DNA from: Planctomycetota bacterium
GTDB lineage: Bacteria; Planctomycetota; Planctomycetia; Pirellulales; Pirellulaceae
NCBI GenBank assembly: GCA_014381825.1
Contig: JACNKX010000052.1
Location: forward strand, 1-51,462
Reading direction: 5' to 3'
DNA length: 51,462 nucleotides
Shown: in pieces, positions 1-28,218 of the stretch
How positions within the stretch are numbered: position 1 is the stretch's first letter
How the letters are laid out: every line of letters starts with the position of its first letter
Position numbers and translations under genes: made by a program
Notes under the pieces: generated by a model
Told to the model about the DNA's origin: nothing
Databases searched by the model: none
Seen by the model: only the letters and a program-made list of their open reading frames with translations

Positions 1-51
1 TGAGGGCTCAAACCGCAGCCCGCTTCCGTTTACCCACTAATTCTTCCCTAG

Positions 52-177
52 AGCCTAATTTATGGTGATGGAGGAAACGACACGATCTTCGGTGATGGTG
101 GCAATGATGATATTCACGGGGGCGACGATAACGACACCATTCACGGCGACAACGGGTTCGGGGACAGCGGTGACGAT
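52..177 (+). other. RTX-repeat coding sequence upstream of the first start codon
   Basis: This stretch stays open in the frame of the next gene and, from about base 61, encodes further glycine/aspartate nonapeptide repeats of the GDGGNDxI type. It has no ATG, GTG or TTG in that frame, and the frame is closed by TAG at 49-51. The repeats therefore belong to the same protein, but its true N-terminus is missing. Either bases 1 to about 57 are foreign sequence joined at a contig end, or the gene is truncated or frameshifted. Confidence 0.6.
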
Positions 178-2736
178 GTGATACACGGCGGCGGTGGAAT
201 CGATGACCTATTTGGCAATGGCGGGAACGATGAACTGTATATTGAATACATCACCTTTTGGAATGACAGCCCGCTGCCTCCGGACGCTGAGACTGCGTCT
301 GGTGGCGAAGGAAATGACAAACTCGTTGGCGAAGCTGGGGGAAGCGGTTGCTCTTGTCAAGGCGGTCCCGGAGATGACCTCATTTTTGCGCAAGGCGGTC
401 GCGCGGTAGCGGGCGGCCAACTTGGTGGTTGGTCGGCCAACGTGGTCTACGGAGGCCCAGGAGATGACACAATCTTCGGCAGCGAAGACGACGACGAGAT
501 TAATGGCGGCCCTGACAACGATATTATTTTCGCCGCAGGTGGGATGGACGAAATTGAGGGTGAGAGTGGGAATGACACGATCTCAGGAGGGTCGGGGGTA
601 GATACGATTAATGGCGGCGACAACGACGATTGGATCGACGGCGGTAATGGCGGGGACATGATCGACGGTGGAACTGGCAATGACGAAATTGCCGGAATGG
701 ACGGCGCTGATGTGATCACAGACCCCGACCAACCCTATAACGGGATTGGCGGCAACCCTGCGTTTATGGATGTCAAAGGGACGGGAGACCCGGCGGATGG
801 CGACTGCGACTTGGAGAACGGCCATCCCGATATCGAATGTGATGGAATCGAGGTAACTGCCTCGATCGATCCCGAGCCCTCGAATGAAGCCGCGGCCGTG
901 ACGCTGTCTGGCACGATCGACGATCCGTACTCCAACGGCATCTACGATATTGTCATTGACTGGGGCGACGGTGCCACCGACACCCAGGACGACGTAACGG
1001 TGTATTCGTTTACGGAGGGACATACCTATGCGGACGACGGCACGTACACGGTGCAGGTGACCGTCACGGATATATCGGACCGGGATGATGCAGTAAGCTT
1101 TACGCACATCGTCAACAACCTGCCACCTGTACCTGTCATCACGGGCGGTGTCGGCGGACCGGAAGGAACGGCGATCACGCTGACCGGCAGCGCCACCGAC
1201 CCGGCGGCACCATATGACACCATTATCTCGCTAGATTGGTCAGTGACCAAAGGTGGAACCGCCTACGCCGCAGGCAGCGGGCCGTCTTTCAGCTTTACCC
1301 CCGATGACAATGGCAATTACGTTGTCACGCTCACCGCGGCGGACGAAGACGGTGGCTCGGGAAGCGCCAGCACGTCGTTGGCCGTAACGAATGTCGCGCC
1401 CAGCCTGACGGCTTCCCTATCAACCAGTGTCATCAATGAAGGATCCTCTGTAACAATTAGCGGAACGTATACCGATCCAGGCTCGGCCGACACGCATACC
1501 GTCGCAATCGACTGGGATGACGGTGCCTTCGGCGGCACGCCGGTTGTCGATACTTTTGCAGTCAGCGGCGGAAGTTTTACGAGAAGCTATACCTATCAGG
1601 ATGATGGACCGGGATACCATGTGGACGGCATGCCTGGCAACGGAACGCTAAGCGATGGCTACAGCATCGGCATCACCATCACCGACGACGATGGCGGCAG
1701 CGACACGGATTCGCAGGCGCTCACCGTCAACAACGTCGACCCCGTTGTGACGCTCGCCACGTCCGGCGACTTTGAGATAACGCTTGATGTCACCATCGAC
1801 GATCCTGGCACGGATGTTCCCTCGTACCACATCGACTGGGGCGACGGGTTCAGCGAGTCCCATCCCTATCTGTATTTCGACAATTATCAATTCAACCATG
1901 ACTATATGATGGAGGGCACGTACACGATTTCCGTAACGGTGGACGACGACGACGGCGGTTCCGGGTCGGCGTCGACAACAGCGACTGTCAGCCTGGGTGG
2001 CGGCGGGGCCTTTTTGACCCTCGCCGATCCCGGTGTTGGACCTCAATCGCCGCTAGCCGGCGCGATCTCGATGGACGCCGTCAAAGCAATGCTGCCGCAC
2101 GCCGTCGAGTACTGGCAAGAATCATCAGGTGTCACTTTCCAGCCGGTCAAGATTCGAATCGTCGATCTGCCCCATGGGCGGCTCGCTGCCGCGAATCCGG
2201 ATTCGGGCACGATATTCGTTGACAAGGATGCGTCGGGATACGGCTGGTTCGCAAGTGAGCATCGTACAGCCGCGGCGATGGCTGGCCGTGTCGATTTGCT
2301 TTCCGCGCTGACGCACGAACTGGGCCACGTCTCAGGCCGGCATCATGACGATCACGGGCCAATGGGCGAGTACTTGGCTCTCGGCACCCGCAGCATGCCG
2401 GAAGCGGATCATCGGCAACATGAATTAACCGTCCTCGCCGTCGACCGCTACTTCGGCGCGGCCCTGCCGCTCGCAAGTCAGCGCAGCACCACTCTGGGAT
2501 CGGGCCTGTCTGACGTAGAACTGTTGCCACCGACAAATGACAAATTGTCGGATCGCAAGCGACTTGTCGCTCCACTTGCTCGGGAAGTCGTTGATGTCAA
2601 GTTGCTGGACAACGGCCCTCCAGCGACTGTGGATTCGGGCGGCGGTGCAGATGACGAATTGGATCTGTTGCTGGGAGGCGACGCAGAGTTGCAAATGGAT
2701 GTCGAAACCGGTGAACTCACGCGCATGCTGTCCTAA
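178..2736 (+). CDS. Secreted RTX/PKD-repeat protein with metzincin-like zinc motif (5' partial)
   Basis: Probably a large calcium-binding extracellular protein. Residues 1-185 are RTX-type repeats (GGxGNDxI, GGxDNDxI) that fold into a calcium-bound beta-roll. Residues about 220-605 hold about four PKD-like modules, recognisable by WGDG and DDDGGS motifs. The C-terminal 230 residues contain HELGHVSGRHH at 713-723, which fits the metzincin zinc consensus HExxHxxGxxH, with a Met (GPMGEY) shortly after it. This suggests a protease domain or a relative of one. The listed start is GTG at 178, but repeat coding continues upstream of it without any start codon, so the real protein was longer at its N-terminus. 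The TPR gene follows after 16 bases. Substrate and activity are unknown. The RTX/PKD assignment is firm; the protease role is inferred from one motif. Confidence 0.8.
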   Translation: MIHGGGGIDDLFGNGGNDELYIEYITFWNDSPLPPDAETASGGEGNDKLVGEAGGSGCSCQGGPGDDLIFAQGGRAVAGGQLGGWSANVVYGGPGDDTIFGSEDDDEINGGPDNDIIFAAGGMDEIEGESGNDTISGGSGVDTINGGDNDDWIDGGNGGDMIDGGTGNDEIAGMDGADVITDPDQPYNGIGGNPAFMDVKGTGDPADGDCDLENGHPDIECDGIEVTASIDPEPSNEAAAVTLSGTIDDPYSNGIYDIVIDWGDGATDTQDDVTVYSFTEGHTYADDGTYTVQVTVTDISDRDDAVSFTHIVNNLPPVPVITGGVGGPEGTAITLTGSATDPAAPYDTIISLDWSVTKGGTAYAAGSGPSFSFTPDDNGNYVVTLTAADEDGGSGSASTSLAVTNVAPSLTASLSTSVINEGSSVTISGTYTDPGSADTHTVAIDWDDGAFGGTPVVDTFAVSGGSFTRSYTYQDDGPGYHVDGMPGNGTLSDGYSIGITITDDDGGSDTDSQALTVNNVDPVVTLATSGDFEITLDVTIDDPGTDVPSYHIDWGDGFSESHPYLYFDNYQFNHDYMMEGTYTISVTVDDDDGGSGSASTTATVSLGGGGAFLTLADPGVGPQSPLAGAISMDAVKAMLPHAVEYWQESSGVTFQPVKIRIVDLPHGRLAAANPDSGTIFVDKDASGYGWFASEHRTAAAMAGRVDLLSALTHELGHVSGRHHDDHGPMGEYLALGTRSMPEADHRQHELTVLAVDRYFGAALPLASQRSTTLGSGLSDVELLPPTNDKLSDRKRLVAPLAREVVDVKLLDNGPPATVDSGGGADDELDLLLGGDAELQMDVETGELTRMLS

Positions 2737-21801: not shown

Positions 21802-22467
21802 ATGAGCGACTATCAGCCGACGTCGCGCCGACCGATCGCGCAGGCGTTTCGCTCAACGGCAAATTGGTGCGTGCGTCTCTGTGTACGCTTGGGAATTCAC
21901 GCGGATTGTGTTTCGTACGCGTCCGTCGTCGCCGCCGCTGGTGCCGCTGCTTGCTTCTGGAGGGCGTCGGACTATCCGTACTTACTTCTAATCGGGGCAC
22001 TGCTCTGTGGCATACGACTGTGGTTCAACATGCTCGATGGCATGGTAGCGTTGGCGTCGGGCCAGGCGAGTCTTCGCGGCGAGATCGTCAACGAACTGCC
22101 TGATCGATTCTCTGACGTGCTGATTTTCGTCGGAGTCGCGCACAGCGGTTTGTGTTTCGTCGTGAGCGGCTATTGGGCCGCGATCATGGCGTTGCTGGTT
22201 GCCTACATCGGCACGCTGGGGCAGGCGGTTGGAGTACAACGCCAGTTTGGCGGCGTCATGTCAAAGCCCTGGCGCATGGCCGCCTTGATGTTGGGAGCGT
22301 GTCTGACCTCCGTCCTGCTTATGAGCGAACGGGAGATTCGATACCCGAATCTGGTCACCGTGTTGGATTGGACGTGCCTTGTAATCGTGCTAGGTTGCCT
22401 GCAGACGATCGTAGTTCGACTGGCGCGGTTGCTTCGTGAAGTGCGTGACGATGAAGCCATAAAATGA
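21802..22467 (+). CDS. CDP-alcohol phosphatidyltransferase-family membrane protein (YnbA-like)
   Basis: A 221-residue membrane protein with about six helices, first gene of a tight four-gene operon. The CDP-alcohol phosphatidyltransferase signature DxxDGxxAR(x8)GxxxDxxxD is present with exact spacing but changed residues: Asn76-ML-Asp79-Gly80, Ala83-Leu84, Gly93, Asn97 and Asp101. Two of the three metal-binding aspartates (first and third) are Asn, and the arginine is Leu, while the proposed catalytic base Asp101 remains. Order and neighbours match E. coli ynbA. It may join a CDP-activated lipid to an unknown acceptor, or have lost or altered catalysis. Its stop overlaps the next gene's ATG by four bases. 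Confidence 0.85.
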   Translation: MSDYQPTSRRPIAQAFRSTANWCVRLCVRLGIHADCVSYASVVAAAGAAACFWRASDYPYLLLIGALLCGIRLWFNMLDGMVALASGQASLRGEIVNELPDRFSDVLIFVGVAHSGLCFVVSGYWAAIMALLVAYIGTLGQAVGVQRQFGGVMSKPWRMAALMLGACLTSVLLMSEREIRYPNLVTVLDWTCLVIVLGCLQTIVVRLARLLREVRDDEAIK

Positions 22468-23390
22468 GCGATGTCTTTCGACTCTATTTGAGCATTATCG
22501 CGACTTGGCTCGTGTTGGCGGGAATCGTTCTGGCGATACTCTCTTGGGGCCTCAAGCGTAACGTCGGCAACGTTTGGTCGATCTATCGCAGTTGGCTGGT
22601 CATGATTCCTGTGGCCATGTCCTGTATCTATCTCGGGCGCGTCGCGACGATCGTGTTCGTGACCGCATTAATGCTCGTTGCCTGCTATGAGTTCTCGCGT
22701 GCGACGAACTTGACTCGCGACCGCTGGATGATGAGCGCCGTGTTGCTGCTCGTCGGTGCCACCAGCCTGACGGCCTTGGTACACGACCCGTTTCAGGCTA
22801 GACCCGGCTGGTTCCCCATGTTTCTGGCGATGCCCGCGTATGCCATCGCACTGATCTTGATCGTGCCGGTTTTGCGCAACAAGGTTCAAGGGCAGGTACG
22901 GGTCGTCTCTTTGGCGATTGTCGCCTATGTGTTCCTTGGCTGGATGTTCGGCCATCTCGGTCATCTCGCGAACTCCCCGCACGCGGAAGGTTACTTGTTG
23001 TTCTTGTTGTTCGCTGTCGAATCGAACGACATTGCGGCCTTCACATTTGGCAAACTGTTTGGGCGACATCCGCTGCGCAGCGCTATCAGCCCCAATAAGA
23101 CCTGGGAGGGTGCGATAGGCGGATTCGGTGTGTCGATGGCACTGCCGTGGTTGCTTCGCTTCTCCTTCCCCAACGACTTTGGTACAACGCAATTGCTGCT
23201 GACCGGCATCATCGTTGGCCTTGGTGGACAGATGGGTGACCTGGCGATTAGCGTGATCAAACGCGACCTCGACGTGAAAGACATGGGGGCGGCGATACCG
23301 GGGCATGGTGGCGTTCTGGACCGCGTTGACAGCCTGTTGTTTACGTCGCCGTTCTTTGTTCACATGCTCAATTACTTCGATCTGCTTTGA
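22464..23390 (+). CDS. CdsA-family phosphatidate cytidylyltransferase (YnbB-like)
   Basis: A 308-residue membrane protein with about eight helices. The C-terminus carries the CdsA signature: SVIKRDLDVKDMG, then PGHGGVLDRVDS, including the paired aspartates that bind metal and CTP. The family makes CDP-diacylglycerol from phosphatidate and CTP. Coupling by an ATGA overlap to a CDP-alcohol phosphatidyltransferase suggests it supplies the activated lipid for that enzyme, separate from the housekeeping CdsA. The pairing corresponds to E. coli ynbA-ynbB. The substrate specificity is not visible. Confidence 0.9.
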   Translation: MSDVFRLYLSIIATWLVLAGIVLAILSWGLKRNVGNVWSIYRSWLVMIPVAMSCIYLGRVATIVFVTALMLVACYEFSRATNLTRDRWMMSAVLLLVGATSLTALVHDPFQARPGWFPMFLAMPAYAIALILIVPVLRNKVQGQVRVVSLAIVAYVFLGWMFGHLGHLANSPHAEGYLLFLLFAVESNDIAAFTFGKLFGRHPLRSAISPNKTWEGAIGGFGVSMALPWLLRFSFPNDFGTTQLLLTGIIVGLGGQMGDLAISVIKRDLDVKDMGAAIPGHGGVLDRVDSLLFTSPFFVHMLNYFDLL

Positions 23391-23399
23391 CCTGTACGG

Positions 23400-25184
23400 A
23401 TGCCAATGGCCCAAGATCACATCGCCGCCGACTCAGCGACGCGGATTTCGTCGGAACACGGTTTCACGTCGTGGGACGGAACCGAGTTGTTTTACCGTAC
23501 CTGGGAACCGCAATCGCCATCCCGTCAGGCGCTCGTCTTGCTTCACCGAGGCCATGAGCATTCCGGCCGCTTTCAAGACTTCGTGGATCGTGCCAATCTC
23601 GATGACTTTTGGATGTTTGCATGGGACGCGCGAGGCCACGGGCACTCGCCAGGCGAACGGGGATACGCTCCAAGTTTCAGTTCCGTCGTTCGCGACCTTG
23701 ATTGGTTCGTGAAACACGTCTCCGAGTCTCACGACATTCCAGTCGAGAACATGGCGATCGTGGCTAACAGTATCGGCGCGGTGATTACTGCGACATGGGT
23801 TCACGATTATGCGCCGTCGATTCGGGCAATGGTACTCGCCACACCTGCGTTTCGTGTCAAGCTGTATGTGCCCCTAGCTGTGCCCGGCTTGCGAGCGTTA
23901 CACCGAATCAAGCCGAAGTCGTTCATAAAGAGTTACGTCAAGCCAGGGATGTTGACGCACGACGAAGAGATGATCAAGCAGATTGCCGACGACGACCTGA
24001 TCACCGACAACATCGCGGTGAACATTCTCCTCGAAATGCACGACACGGCGACGCGCATCATGGATGACGCCGGCGCGATTCACGTTCCCACGCTCGTGCT
24101 TTCAGCCGGTTCGGATTGGGTCGTACAGCGTTCCGCGCAACGTCGTTTTTTTGAACGGCTGTCGTCACGAACAAAGGAGATGGTCGAGTACAAGGAGTTT
24201 TCTCACGCGATCTTGCACGAGAAGGACCGCACACGCCCGATCGCTAAGATCCACGAGTTCATCAACAGCATCTTTGAAGCTCCGCTCGAACGAGACTCGT
24301 TATTAGAGGCCGATCAAGCAGACTACACGAAACAAGCGGCGGATCGACTCCGTCAGCCGCTCTCACCTATTTCACCACGCGGCATGTACTTTGGCAGCAC
24401 CAAGCTGGTCCTGAAAACGATCGGACAACTCAGTGACGGGATTCGAACCGGCTGGCGAACCGGATTTAACTCGGGCGAATCGCTCGATCATGTCTATCGC
24501 AATCAAGCACAGGGTACGACTCCCTTGGGGTGGCTCGCGGACCGCCTGTACCTCAACAACCCTGGTTGGACCGGCATTCGTCAACGGAAACGACATATGG
24601 AACAATTGTTGGAGCGTGCCATCGGAGAAACGCATCAGCAAGGCCAGCCAATTCGATTGCTCGACATTGCGGCCGGCCCGGGGCGATATGTGCTTGATGT
24701 GATCGGACGGTTGTCCGAATTTGACATTTCGGTCGTCTTGAGAGACCAAAATTCGGATGCTTGCGAAATGGGGCGAACACTGGCGAAACAGCGCGGCGTG
24801 ATCGATGTTGTTTTTGAAACCGGCGATGCGTTTGACGAAGAGGCCCTGGCGGCGATCGACCCACGACCCACCATCGCGATCGTATCGGGGCTTTACGAGC
24901 TGTTCTCCGATAACAAGCGGGTCGCGGCGTCACTCAACGGACTAGGACGAGCTGTCGAAGACGGCGGTTATCTGCTTTATACGAACCAACCGTGGCACCC
25001 GCAGCACGAGTTAATCGCCCGTTCGCTGGTCGGGATGGATGCCCAGCCATGGATCATGCGTTGTCGCACACAGCTGGAAATGGACCAACTGGTCGCAGCC
25101 GCTGGGTTCAAGAAGATCGACATGCTGATCGACGATCAAGGTATCTTTACCGTATCACTTGCCCGCCGGATATCGCGACCATGA
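23400..25184 (+). CDS. Fusion: alpha/beta hydrolase + class I methyltransferase (YnbC-like)
   Basis: A 594-residue soluble protein. Residues 1-295 are an alpha/beta hydrolase of the monoacylglycerol-lipase kind: oxyanion region LLHRGHEHSGR, nucleophile elbow ANSIGA (Ser124; the usual first Gly is Ala), Asp239 in GSDW and His269 in FSHA. Residues about 380-594 are a SAM-dependent methyltransferase with motif I LLDIAAGPGRY (420-430). The same fusion, at similar length, is E. coli YnbC. Following the two lipid-activation genes, a role in editing or methylating a lipid product is likely. ATG 23400 or 23406 may be the start. Its stop overlaps the next ATG (ATGA). Confidence 0.88.
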   Translation: MPMAQDHIAADSATRISSEHGFTSWDGTELFYRTWEPQSPSRQALVLLHRGHEHSGRFQDFVDRANLDDFWMFAWDARGHGHSPGERGYAPSFSSVVRDLDWFVKHVSESHDIPVENMAIVANSIGAVITATWVHDYAPSIRAMVLATPAFRVKLYVPLAVPGLRALHRIKPKSFIKSYVKPGMLTHDEEMIKQIADDDLITDNIAVNILLEMHDTATRIMDDAGAIHVPTLVLSAGSDWVVQRSAQRRFFERLSSRTKEMVEYKEFSHAILHEKDRTRPIAKIHEFINSIFEAPLERDSLLEADQADYTKQAADRLRQPLSPISPRGMYFGSTKLVLKTIGQLSDGIRTGWRTGFNSGESLDHVYRNQAQGTTPLGWLADRLYLNNPGWTGIRQRKRHMEQLLERAIGETHQQGQPIRLLDIAAGPGRYVLDVIGRLSEFDISVVLRDQNSDACEMGRTLAKQRGVIDVVFETGDAFDEEALAAIDPRPTIAIVSGLYELFSDNKRVAASLNGLGRAVEDGGYLLYTNQPWHPQHELIARSLVGMDAQPWIMRCRTQLEMDQLVAAAGFKKIDMLIDDQGIFTVSLARRISRP

Positions 25185-26170
25185 GCGGCCCCGACCTCAA
25201 GACGCTGACATCCTACTTTCGGCTGATGAATACCAATGGCGCGGCACAAGCCTACCATGCGGCATTGCATGCGGGTGTGTTGTCAGCCATGGACAGCGGG
25301 CCGCAATCCAGTGAACAGATCGCGCGGACGTGCGGACTGCAAGAGCACCCGACCGCGTTGCTATTGGACGCCCTGCGTGCGATGGGCGTCGTTCAGCGAA
25401 GCGACTCCAAGTACCAACTCGCGGAAGTCGCTCGCATGCTGCTGTACAGCGAGTACCGCGAATTAGGAAACCAGTATTGGCATGCGCTACCCGACTTTCT
25501 GAAAACGGGCGAGCCCATCAGGAAGATGGATGATGTCACGAAGAGCGAGGAGTCCTATCAAACGCAAGCGGCCATGCTGGGCTGGATGTTGTCGCACGCT
25601 GCGGAAGCCGCCGCGACGGCGTTGACCGCCAAGTCGCCGCGACATGACCTGCGGATCCTGGACGTCGGTGCCGGTTCTGCGGTTTGGAGTTTGAGTATCG
25701 CAAGGCGAGATGCCGAGAGTCACGTCACAGCTGTTGACTGGCTAAGTATTCTCGAAGTCGCCAAAGAAACGGCGCGAACATTTGGATTGCCCGAGCGATT
25801 GACGACCATCGCGGGCAACTTCCATGAAGTTGAACTACCCGCGAATGCCTTCGATTTGGCTATCGTGGCAAACGTTACGCACCTGCAAACGGCGGAAGAA
25901 AATGCAGGACTCTTCGCCAGAATTCACCGCTGCTTAACTTCCGATGGCCAGATCGTCGTGATCGACGCTTTCCCCGGAGCCTCAGAGGGGAACGTTCCAT
26001 TTGCGCTCTATCATCTCGGGCTGGCCTTGCGAACGCAAAACGGCAAGGTGTATTCGTCGGAAGCGATTCGATCCATGCTCCAATCTCAGGGCTTCGAAGC
26101 CGGCACGTTAACACCGCTCGACGTACCACCCTTTATGGTTGGCATGCTGGTTGCGCGAGCGCTCAAGTAG
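25181..26170 (+). CDS. SAM-dependent methyltransferase, O-methyltransferase-2-like
   Basis: A 329-residue protein. Residues 10-90 are a winged-helix dimerisation region (AYHAALHAGVLSAM, TALLLDALRAMGVV) as in plant/bacterial O-methyltransferase family 2 enzymes. Residues about 155-329 form the Rossmann domain with motif I ILDVGAGSAVWSL (159-171) and a later DGQIVVIDAF segment. ATG 25181 overlaps the stop of the fusion gene by four bases; the longer open frame upstream overlaps that gene and is rejected. E. coli has ynbD (a phosphatase-like gene) at this place, so this operon replaces it with a second methyltransferase. Substrate unknown; a small-molecule or lipid head-group acceptor is inferred. 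Confidence 0.85.
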   Translation: MSGPDLKTLTSYFRLMNTNGAAQAYHAALHAGVLSAMDSGPQSSEQIARTCGLQEHPTALLLDALRAMGVVQRSDSKYQLAEVARMLLYSEYRELGNQYWHALPDFLKTGEPIRKMDDVTKSEESYQTQAAMLGWMLSHAAEAAATALTAKSPRHDLRILDVGAGSAVWSLSIARRDAESHVTAVDWLSILEVAKETARTFGLPERLTTIAGNFHEVELPANAFDLAIVANVTHLQTAEENAGLFARIHRCLTSDGQIVVIDAFPGASEGNVPFALYHLGLALRTQNGKVYSSEAIRSMLQSQGFEAGTLTPLDVPPFMVGMLVARALK

Positions 26171-26177
26171 AGGCGAC

Positions 26178-26822
26178 TCACGCGTCACTGGACGATTCCG
26201 CCTCCGGTGCCCTTCGTCGAAATCGGGCCATGCACCAACTTGCTATCCACCCAAGAACAAGACCCGCGAGCAGCGTCGCGGCACCGGCCTTGATCATGAT
26301 GTCCTCGACGGCCGAGCGGAGCATCGGGTTGTCAAATGGACTCAGCGAACTGTGGGCCCGCACGACTTTCCATTCGCCATCGACCTTGTGCAACACCGCG
26401 GTCCACCTCGAAGGAAACTCGAAACGTTCGCCACCGCCATTGATCAGTACATTCTGGGAATTCCCTCGCGCGATGGCGATGTCGCCAATGATTTGGCTCA
26501 ACTCCGGCTGCATATCCGTCGTGTAGCTACCGCCGTCGAGCAACTCGTCGCGTGTCTTTTGCCATCGCTCCTTGAACGCCGTGAAGTCCGAAAACTCGCG
26601 GTCGGTATATGTAACGATGGAGAAATCTTCGGCCAAATGAGGCTCAAACAGATCCAGATTGTTGGTGTTGATCGCCTCCTCGGCGACCGCACGGATCTCT
26701 CGAAGAGCTTCGTGGTCGGCCTCTTGATTTGCCGCGACGTCCGCAGCGTTCAACCACTTTGAACTTGTAACGAAGATGCTGAGCGAGATCAGCAGAATAA
26801 ACGTCATGCCATGGTGAAACAT
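26178..26822 (-). CDS. Exported/membrane-anchored SnoaL-like (NTF2-fold) protein
   Basis: Predicted 214-residue protein. An N-terminal signal/anchor (TFILLISLSIFV) is followed by a DUF4440/SnoaL-like NTF2-fold domain at about residues 35-155 (AEEAINTNNLDLFEPHLAED, FSDFTAFKERW, SRWTAVLHKVDGEWKVVRAH). A C-terminal membrane helix (GAATLLAGLVLGWIASW) and a basic/acidic tail come last. The fold occurs in enzymes and in binding proteins; no catalytic residues can be assigned here. The start is uncertain: ATG 26822 is chosen, but ATG 26873, with AGGAG almost touching it, is possible. It ends seven bases from the convergent methyltransferase gene. Confidence 0.75.
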   Translation of the reverse strand: MFHHGMTFILLISLSIFVTSSKWLNAADVAANQEADHEALREIRAVAEEAINTNNLDLFEPHLAEDFSIVTYTDREFSDFTAFKERWQKTRDELLDGGSYTTDMQPELSQIIGDIAIARGNSQNVLINGGGERFEFPSRWTAVLHKVDGEWKVVRAHSSLSPFDNPMLRSAVEDIMIKAGAATLLAGLVLGWIASWCMARFRRRAPEAESSSDA

Positions 26823-27102
26823 TGGCCTACCGATAAGTGCGATCGTGCAAATTGACAAAATGCGTCGCGACATTCTCCTGTATATCGGGATCGTTCTCCA
26901 GTGGACCACAGTTTCGCCCGAATTTACGCATCCATCCAAAGTCACATTGCCCGTGATACAACCCGTGCAACGGGCGACGAGAGGCGAAACTCAATTCTTG
27001 CCCGCATACCATCGATGGCGGTAGAATCAGATGGTTTCCAGAACTAGCTTCATATTAAGCGAGTCAGCAAGTGTCCCAGTTTACTATCTAGGAGCCGGTC
27101 CG

Positions 27103-28218
27103 ATGTTTTCCAAACTCGCGATGGCGATCATGTTAATACTTTTGGTGAATTCTCTTGGCGTTGGGCAAGAGTCACTGGATATCACTCGGGATCTGCTAAA
27201 CATTGATGTAAGCGATTACGATCGCTCGCATGCGATTCAACTGATCAGTCGCCATGATCAAAACCGCGATCGCTCATTGAACGAAGAAGAGATGCGTACG
27301 TTGAAGTTGATGATGCCCGTTACCGTTATCGACTTCAATCGCAACCGACGACTGACGACGTTGGAGATTGCGATTTACTTTGCGAACGCAAGCGACCAAC
27401 TCAACATCTCGACACTCGAAAATTACAATGCACGCTACCTCGTCAATCGGCACGACCGCGATGCAGATGGTGCGTTGGCTCAACGCGAGCAATCCGAGTT
27501 TCCACTGCAGGACGAAGCAAAGCAGATCGACCGCGATGCCAACGGCGTACTAACCGCATTCGAGTTAGCAATGTGGTTCGCCAACACCTATACCGAGACC
27601 GGTGTCGATGCACGTGACTTTCGTCTCGCAGCCGATTACCTTAACAATCTCGATAGCGACAAAAATCTATCGCTAAACGAAGAAGAGGCGGTGCCGGGCA
27701 TTTGGCCGATCGATCCTTGGTCCCAGGATGCGAATCGCAATCATGAACTGGAAGCTGTTGAAATTGCTGCCGTGTTTGGCAAGTTCAAACAAGATGCGGG
27801 GATCGAAAACGGGCACGAACTGGGGGCAGAGCGAGCGATGGCTCGATATGACAAGGATCGAAACGGTCGACTCGATTTGGGCGAAATCGAACGAGGACGT
27901 TGGCCAAAGGAATGGGAAACGTTCGACGCCAACGAAGACGGTTTTCTGACGGCATTCGAGTTAGCCGCGAGGTTCGCCGCTAAACAACGCACCCTCGGCG
28001 TTGACCGGCGTACGATTGACAAAGCGGAGGCACTGATTCGAAGCTACGATCGCAATCGCAATGGCCAAGTCGATATGCAAGAAATGCTGGAGTTTCGTGC
28101 TGACGTCGGAGCGATCGATACGGACACATTCCTCCGGCTCGACACGGACGGGAACCAAAAGCTTACGAAAGTAGAGTTGGCGGTCTACTTTGTAACCGGA
28201 TCGTCAGGTGGGAATTGA
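27103..28218 (+). CDS. Secreted EF-hand array protein
   Basis: A 371-residue protein with a signal peptide (FSKLAMAIMLILLVNSLGVG) and ten EF-hand-type calcium loops, for example DQNRDRSLNEEE, DRDADGALAQRE, DKDRNGRLDLGE, DANEDGFLTAFE and DTDGNQKLTKVE. They come in five pairs spaced about 75 residues apart. Several second loops are degenerate (DFNRNRRLTTLE). A periplasmic or surface calcium-binding or structural role is likely. ATG 27103 has AGGAG eight bases upstream and begins the signal peptide; the open frame starts 24 codons earlier without such support. It is divergent from the SnoaL-like gene. Confidence 0.88.
   Translation: MFSKLAMAIMLILLVNSLGVGQESLDITRDLLNIDVSDYDRSHAIQLISRHDQNRDRSLNEEEMRTLKLMMPVTVIDFNRNRRLTTLEIAIYFANASDQLNISTLENYNARYLVNRHDRDADGALAQREQSEFPLQDEAKQIDRDANGVLTAFELAMWFANTYTETGVDARDFRLAADYLNNLDSDKNLSLNEEEAVPGIWPIDPWSQDANRNHELEAVEIAAVFGKFKQDAGIENGHELGAERAMARYDKDRNGRLDLGEIERGRWPKEWETFDANEDGFLTAFELAARFAAKQRTLGVDRRTIDKAEALIRSYDRNRNGQVDMQEMLEFRADVGAIDTDTFLRLDTDGNQKLTKVELAVYFVTGSSGGN

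Follow-up and report, generated by a model that had tools for sequence, protein, structure and literature searches.

A candidate accessory phospholipid operon of the Ynb/Arc1 kind with a methyltransferase in the YnbD place in a planctomycete

A four-gene operon of a Planctomycetota bacterium (Pirellulaceae; GenBank assembly GCA_014381825.1) raises the question of what a lipid operon of the ynbABCD kind does when a methyltransferase occupies the place in which Escherichia coli has the phosphatase YnbD. The genes, here called A to D, lie on the forward strand of contig JACNKX010000052.1, of which a stretch of 51,462 nucleotides (the window) was analysed. We read them as an accessory branch of phospholipid synthesis, of the Ynb/Arc1 kind, with methylation in place of the YnbD step, and give this reading a probability of roughly 0.55, based on homology, gene order, the recurrence of D beside ynbC, the failure to find a full-length YnbD in the methyltransferase-bearing genomes and an asparagine signature in the YnbA family. 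That the genes form a lipid operon of the Ynb/Arc1 type to which D contributes a function is very probable; that D stands in for the YnbD step is tentative and falls a little short of an even chance.

Operon layout and relatives

As the sequence-only reading had claimed, the first three genes match ynbABC in content and order: all three are homologous to their E. coli counterparts and stand in the same order and on the same strand, with identities of 32% over 110 residues (YnbA), 32% over 307 residues (YnbB) and 47% over 585 residues (YnbC), the last extending over the full length of the fusion protein encoded by C. The coordinates also bear out the tight packing described there, with ATGA overlaps of A and B (22464-22467) and of C and D (25181-25184) and a gap of 9 bases between B and C (23391-23399), so that the junctions are tighter than those of E. 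coli ynb and the proteins may, as supposed before, be made in fixed proportion. The start of D was placed at an ATG (Table 1); the mechanical list of open reading frames (ORFs) gives an earlier one (GTG 24992). No acyltransferase gene stands in the operon, where B and C leave only the 9 bases between them, and no annotated acyltransferase adjoins E. coli ynb either. A scan for promoters and terminators gave no more sites than shuffled sequences (1 site where these had 2.3 on average, and 5 where they had 5.6). An anomalous base composition as a sign of recent transfer was rejected, as the guanine plus cytosine contents of operon (0.57) and window (0.562) give no signal. The arrangement is more than chance because all four genes stand together in two other planctomycetes, in one of them in identical order; an assembly or annotation accident as the origin of D was rejected, since D recurs beside ynbC in both (genomes G056 and G226).

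Table 1. Positions of the operon, its neighbour and the motif codons discussed in the text (window coordinates; residues of the protein where stated).
Feature	Position	Strand	Description
Gene A	21802-22467	+	221 aa; YnbA-type, predicted CDP-alcohol phosphotransferase fold
Asn76 codon (gene A)	22027-22029	+	replaces first motif Asp
Asn97 codon (gene A)	22090-22092	+	replaces third motif Asp
Gene B	22464-23390	+	308 aa; YnbB/CdsA-type phosphatidate cytidylyltransferase
Gene C	23400-25184	+	594 aa; YnbC-type hydrolase and Methyltransf_20 fusion
Gene C, hydrolase domain	residues about 40-276		monoglyceride-lipase-like alpha/beta hydrolase
Gene C, methyltransferase domain	residues 284-590		Methyltransf_20
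Gene D	25181-26170 (start ATG 25181)	+	329 aa; class I S-adenosylmethionine (SAM) O-methyltransferase type, N-terminal dimerisation domain, YnbD place
Gene E	26178-26945	-	DUF4440/SnoaL-like (1.6e-9), tail to tail with D

Gene B matched CTP_transf_1 (4.7e-59; 200.8 bits, cut-off 24), contains the stretch SVIKRDLDVKDMGAAIPGHGGVLDRVD, which we take to be the CdsA signature, and is 47-60% identical to the B genes of ten loci in which the window's B gave the better match and the gene lay close by. Gene C matched Hydrolase_4 (4.9e-66) and Methyltransf_20 (PF12147; 2.3e-119). The solved chains closest to it are monoacylglycerol lipases, which cover the hydrolase part only, and Ser124, Asp239 and His269, in triad-like positions common to E. 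coli YnbC, form a putative catalytic triad. Foldseek placed the Methyltransf_20 domain broadly among class I methyltransferases (best match 3ocj, TM 0.66) with no hint of a substrate, and our limited literature search found no paper on Methyltransf_20/PF12147.

In Pseudomonas aeruginosa, PA2541-36 have been described as arc1A-F, a Gac/Rsm-controlled set of which five of six genes look phospholipid-related (PMC8926400). To compare it with ynb, we looked for the sequence of a PA2541 deletion primer from that paper in the family of Pseudomonas sp. GD03944 (398 genomes) and obtained one match, in a stretch with all four primer sites in the expected order (three exact, one with one mismatch). The primers bound a YnbA ORF (50% over 175 aa to the E. 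coli protein), behind which come YnbC (56%), YnbD (41%), a 150-aa ORF without a Pfam match at E<=0.01 (L188 4933-5385), an acyltransferase-like ORF and YnbB (39%). By homology, arc1A thus corresponds to YnbA, the second gene to YnbC and the sixth to YnbB, and on this sequence evidence the window's first three genes, like ynbABC, are homologous to arc1. The arc1 locus differs in having YnbD, the 150-aa protein and the acyltransferase-like gene, which the window lacks, and in its control by the Gac/Rsm pathway, which has been called restricted to gamma-Proteobacteria (PMC8926400). In a limited search we found no paper linking ynb to arc1, and the term ynb is absent from the main text of PMC8926400 and PMC11888443.

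For E. coli itself, deletion of ynbB left growth unaffected (PMC6362211), a transposon disruption of ynbC, possibly polar, altered the localisation of a group II intron protein (PMC2435150) and a persistence study tabulates ynbC among its mutated genes (PMC13313352). None of the E. coli papers names the product, which the sequence-only reading had taken to be uncharacterised; the system is not wholly so, as P. aeruginosa arc1 is a homologue of it.

The asparagine pair of the YnbA-type protein

Gene A gave no Pfam match at E<=0.01, and in NCBIfam it matched models for archaetidylinositol-phosphate and phosphatidylinositol-phosphate (PIP) synthases (5e-20 and 1.4e-11), both below cut-off (72 bits against 180 for the better one); it is 55-68% identical to the A genes near ynbC at seven aligned Verrucomicrobia/Planctomycetota loci. 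A structure model built from 25 sequences (pLDDT 91) has the six-helix membrane fold of the CDP-alcohol phosphotransferase superfamily. All 19 Foldseek matches at E<=0.001 were CDP-alcohol transferases with PIP synthases on top, the closest in fold being MtPgsA1 (6h59) and RsPIPS (5d92) and the closest in sequence among solved proteins MtPgsA1 and the PIP synthase of M. kansasii. Unlike these, gene A lacks the canonical motif DxxDGxxAR..GxxxDxxxD (PMC8633023): Asn replaces the first and third Asp and Leu the Arg, so that it reads NMLDG...N...D from residue 76 and was therefore classed as a YnbA-type variant and not as a canonical enzyme.

The exchange is a property of the family. In 84 of 86 rows of YnbA relatives the first and third positions are both Asn; the two misses are fragments of a single gene that is divided between two frames (L057), and several rows represent one gene twice. 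E. coli YnbA and the arc1A relative have the same pair. N76, D79, G80, G93, N97 and D101 are invariant in 25/25 aligned YnbA rows, whereas all five further CDP-alcohol transferases encoded in the window's genome keep Asp at the first and third motif positions. A limited literature search, which is no proof that none exists, found no statement of this pair, and a broad one for CDP-alcohol transferases with Asn yielded only PMC8633023.

In the phosphatidylserine synthase MjPSS, every exchange among the four motif Asp lowered activity or abolished it, and Mg2+ was reported to bring back little or none of that lost in D62N, the third Asp (PMC8633023). YnbA may therefore not be an ordinary phosphotransferase, and the conserved pair taken together with these mutants points to a changed metal site. 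A possible consequence, which we consider unlikely, is that the YnbA-type protein has given up CDP-alcohol transferase activity and either carries CDP-diacylglycerol to a partner or has a one-metal site with a different reaction; the damage in MjPSS and the near-complete Asn pair, set against Asp in the five paralogues, would fit. However, the fold is kept in the model, the second and fourth Asp and both Gly are invariant, and arc1A, likewise a YnbA with Asn at the two positions, gives a phenotype when lost (PMC12663445). Conservation of the Asn thus suggests a retuned chemistry rather than decay, and we keep to YnbA as a transferase of the accessory phospholipid branch.

A methyltransferase beside ynbC

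In E. coli, the fourth gene encodes YnbD, a PAP2-like and dual-specificity phosphatase (DSP; DSPc 1.4e-27, with a weak PAP2 match below cut-off). The claim that the window has a methyltransferase there and no ynbD-type phosphatase was confirmed by matches of D over the cut-offs of Dimerisation (PF08100; 31.6 bits, cut-off 25.6) and Methyltransf_2 (PF00891; 47.2 bits, cut-off 22.3). With the SAM motif I ILDVGAG, D is by sequence of the class I O-methyltransferase type with a dimerisation domain, O-methylation itself being predicted; its nearest solved chain, 2r3s, is uncharacterised.

For the usual gene set, an alignment of the window's and E. coli YnbC was used as query on one genome for each of 84,980 species, and the best 80 of at least 496 relatives were compared. 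These loci are an uneven draw, with Burkholderia, Pseudomonas and Rhizobium heavily represented, and some flanks end with the contig, which makes absences there soft. The usual set consists of acyltransferase, YnbA, YnbB, YnbC and YnbD, with YnbA at 74 loci, YnbB at 65, YnbD at 70 and a PlsC-type acyltransferase at 62, and it is complete in 46 of the 63 loci that have more than 4 kb on both sides. As ten of the best 80 loci, some cut by contig ends, are without YnbD, it is usual but not universal. In Verrucomicrobia and Planctomycetota the five genes run A, B, acyltransferase, C, YnbD (e.g. L055, L061, L076); compared with these, the window is without acyltransferase and YnbD and has D and E.

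Of the seven phylum genomes with a near full-length PF12147 match, two besides the window's have a D homologue adjoining ynbC: G056 has A, B, C and D contiguous in the window's order and G226 has the order A-C-D-B-acyltransferase. When a profile built from six YnbD sequences was run against seven ynbC genomes, a full-length YnbD was found in none of the three with a methyltransferase at ynbC (G226 gave a marginal match only) and in three of the four without one (G426, G258 and G196), the fourth (G344) having a fragment.

It could be argued that D is only a passenger: ynbD would have been lost from a ynbABC operon, behind which an unrelated O-methyltransferase stands by accident. Its family is large and versatile, with a match at E<=0.001 in 236 of 392 phylum genomes, and a D-like gene occurs at only two of the best 80 ynbC loci, clearly at L046, which is the same contig as that of ynbC in G226, and weakly at L044, upstream of A. 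Against this, the two best matches to D outside the window in the 392 genomes (49% and 37%) are the ynbC neighbours of G226 and G056, respectively, and D is coupled to C by the ATGA overlap. We therefore regard a passenger as quite unlikely. In addition, the three ynbC-adjacent D proteins fell with G218 and G312 into a five-row set (support 80/98), while the YnbC tree, which has few firm branches, keeps the three methyltransferase-bearing rows apart (3 changes; joined in 0% of 200 bootstrap trees). In G056, moreover, A and B share 36% and 37% with the E. coli type but 28% and 30% with the genes of the window. On these grounds D seems to be paired with differing ynb cores, a hint that argues for function, on modest tree supports. 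In G218, a D-like methyltransferase appears, by eye, to be fused in frame to a PAS and histidine-kinase-like region (L134/L184).

Gene E, next to D, looks membrane-anchored by eye, with a hydrophobic N-terminus and a C-terminal hydrophobic helix, and its true start is probably downstream of 26945. It has no counterpart in E. coli ynb, and it resembles the gene that immediately precedes A, on the same strand, in G056 (47% over 178 aa; L121 10944-11579). Matches were obtained in 12 of the 392 phylum genomes, its own included, and at none of the best 80 ynbC loci, so E marks at most the methyltransferase-bearing version, of which it is a possible fifth member. In the regions of eight of the other ten genomes, the DUF4440 members are 24-39% identical, and a YnbD-like ORF is present in seven of the eight, being PAP2 by Pfam in L175, the one checked.

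Several relatives of E lie near PAP2/YnbD-like ORFs and a gene for a B12-binding radical SAM protein (L175, L180 and L181 in G303, G066 and G096; also L179 in G079), an apparently recurring planctomycete cluster that was assigned by Pfam in L175 and by eye in L180 and L181. In the window's genome, a DUF4440/SnoaL-like paralogue of E (25%; L185 3082-4467, contig C75) adjoins a PAP2 gene, which is the genome's only YnbD-like match. Downstream of the operon, a protein with many EF-hand repeats is encoded at 27031-28218 (+).

Product and role of the pathway

The set is specialised rather than housekeeping, as the sequence-only reading had it. Ordinary housekeeping phospholipid synthesis, which the resemblance of B and A to the CdsA and PIP-synthase families might suggest, was rejected as scarcely credible, since the genome has three other CdsA-type genes and five other CDP-alcohol transferases and no PF12147 match was obtained in 39 relatives other than the window's genome (two of them congeneric). 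Of the 392 phylum genomes, 33 gave a PF12147 match at E<=0.001, 30 gave one over the cut-off and seven one near full length (>300 bits). Of the other rows, G280 (174.6 bits, positions 40-309; 397 aa), G169 (108.9 bits; 348 aa) and G282 (97.1 bits; 286 aa) cover most of the profile but were dropped as their frames are too short for the fusion, and the remainder are partial or weak. The best 80 loci do include planctomycete records, one of them (L099) from Rhodopirellula baltica. The distribution is thus patchy, as for an accessory trait. Of the further CdsA genes, one adjoins an ORF that we take to be uppS-like. Two further pairs contain a CdsA gene, one with an acyltransferase-like gene (L129 5497-7386, contig C63) and one with a CDP-alcohol transferase (L127 7073-8749, contig C75), the CdsA of the latter being nearer to E. 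coli YnbB (44%) than the window's B is.

We infer the following reactions. B would make a dedicated pool of CDP-diacylglycerol, from which A would pass the phosphatidyl moiety on to an alcohol; as the structures nearest to A are PIP synthases, this acceptor may be a phosphorylated polyol. The lipase-like domain of C may then work on an intermediate, acyl or lyso, and the product may be methylated by the Methyltransf_20 domain of C. D would methylate once more at the point that YnbD phosphatase takes in the usual operon, and the acyltransferase step would be supplied from elsewhere in the genome, which has six genes of the acyltransferase family outside the operon. The product may thus be the methylated phospholipid proposed before. 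A literature search on methylated lipids of planctomycetes listed a paper on trimethylornithine lipids (PMC7828035). A more specific version, to which we give a slim chance, is that D caps the YnbA product by O-methylation, at its terminal phosphate or at a hydroxyl, where YnbD would take the phosphate off, yielding a doubly methylated, lipase-resistant phospholipid that has not yet been described, from a precursor made by a YnbA in which two of four Asp ligands are Asn.

A different product, which we hold to be distinctly unlikely, would be a lipid anchor or a precursor of an MPIase-type glycolipid (GlcNAc-PP-diacylglycerol) instead of a phospholipid. Overproduction of YnbB raises MPIase in E. 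coli and YnbB fails to complement cdsA (PMC6362211), results that allow another use for the pathway. However, deletion of ynbB was reported to cause no significant change in MPIase (PMC6362211) and ynbB to be unnecessary for the phosphoglyceride-linked enterobacterial common antigen, ECA-PG (PMC8609368), the operon is without a glycosyltransferase, and a hydrolase and two methyltransferases do not fit a glycolipid precursor.

As regards the role of a phospholipid branch, Arc1 defends P. aeruginosa against type VI attack (PMC8926400), and arc1A is needed for full resistance to lipase effectors as an auxiliary factor, so called because a strain without tssM1 and arc3A became no worse when arc1A and aas were missing as well (PMC12663445). 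Loss of Arc1 also modestly raised survival of the attacker (PMC8926400). By analogy with arc1A, the altered membrane might suffer less damage from the lipolytic attack of other bacteria. That the operon protects this organism in such a way is doubtful rather than probable.

Besides the MjPSS mutants and the YnbB results, several points weigh against a methylated phospholipid branch with D in the YnbD place. The exchange of methyltransferase and YnbD rests on seven genomes, three with the methyltransferase; the stated completeness of G056 is 88% and that of G226 91%; the contig of G344 ends just behind ynbC, so that a methyltransferase may follow there; and the window's genome has a separate PAP2-like frame (230 aa) and G056 has DSP-like frames on other contigs. 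By themselves, the three D proteins grouped weakly (46/5; 44% of bootstrap trees, the bootstrap not being settled). With respect to the role, three of the six arc1 genes have no counterpart in the window, no single-effector mutation of the attacker was reported to alter the Arc1 defect (PMC8926400), the further loss of arc1A and aas did not worsen the strain without tssM1 and arc3A (PMC12663445), and protection here would be carried over from a distant organism.

The locus bears on a standing gap in the annotation of E. coli, that of ynbABCD. The homology to arc1 gives this pathway a testable role, the resistance of membranes to lipolytic attack, and the methyltransferase-bearing version narrows its chemistry by an apparent natural swap of one step, while the asparagine pair of YnbA makes a clear prediction of an unusual transferase. 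If D indeed O-methylates the YnbA product, methyl capping in place of dephosphorylation would be a switchable last step of a lipid pathway in antagonism defence.

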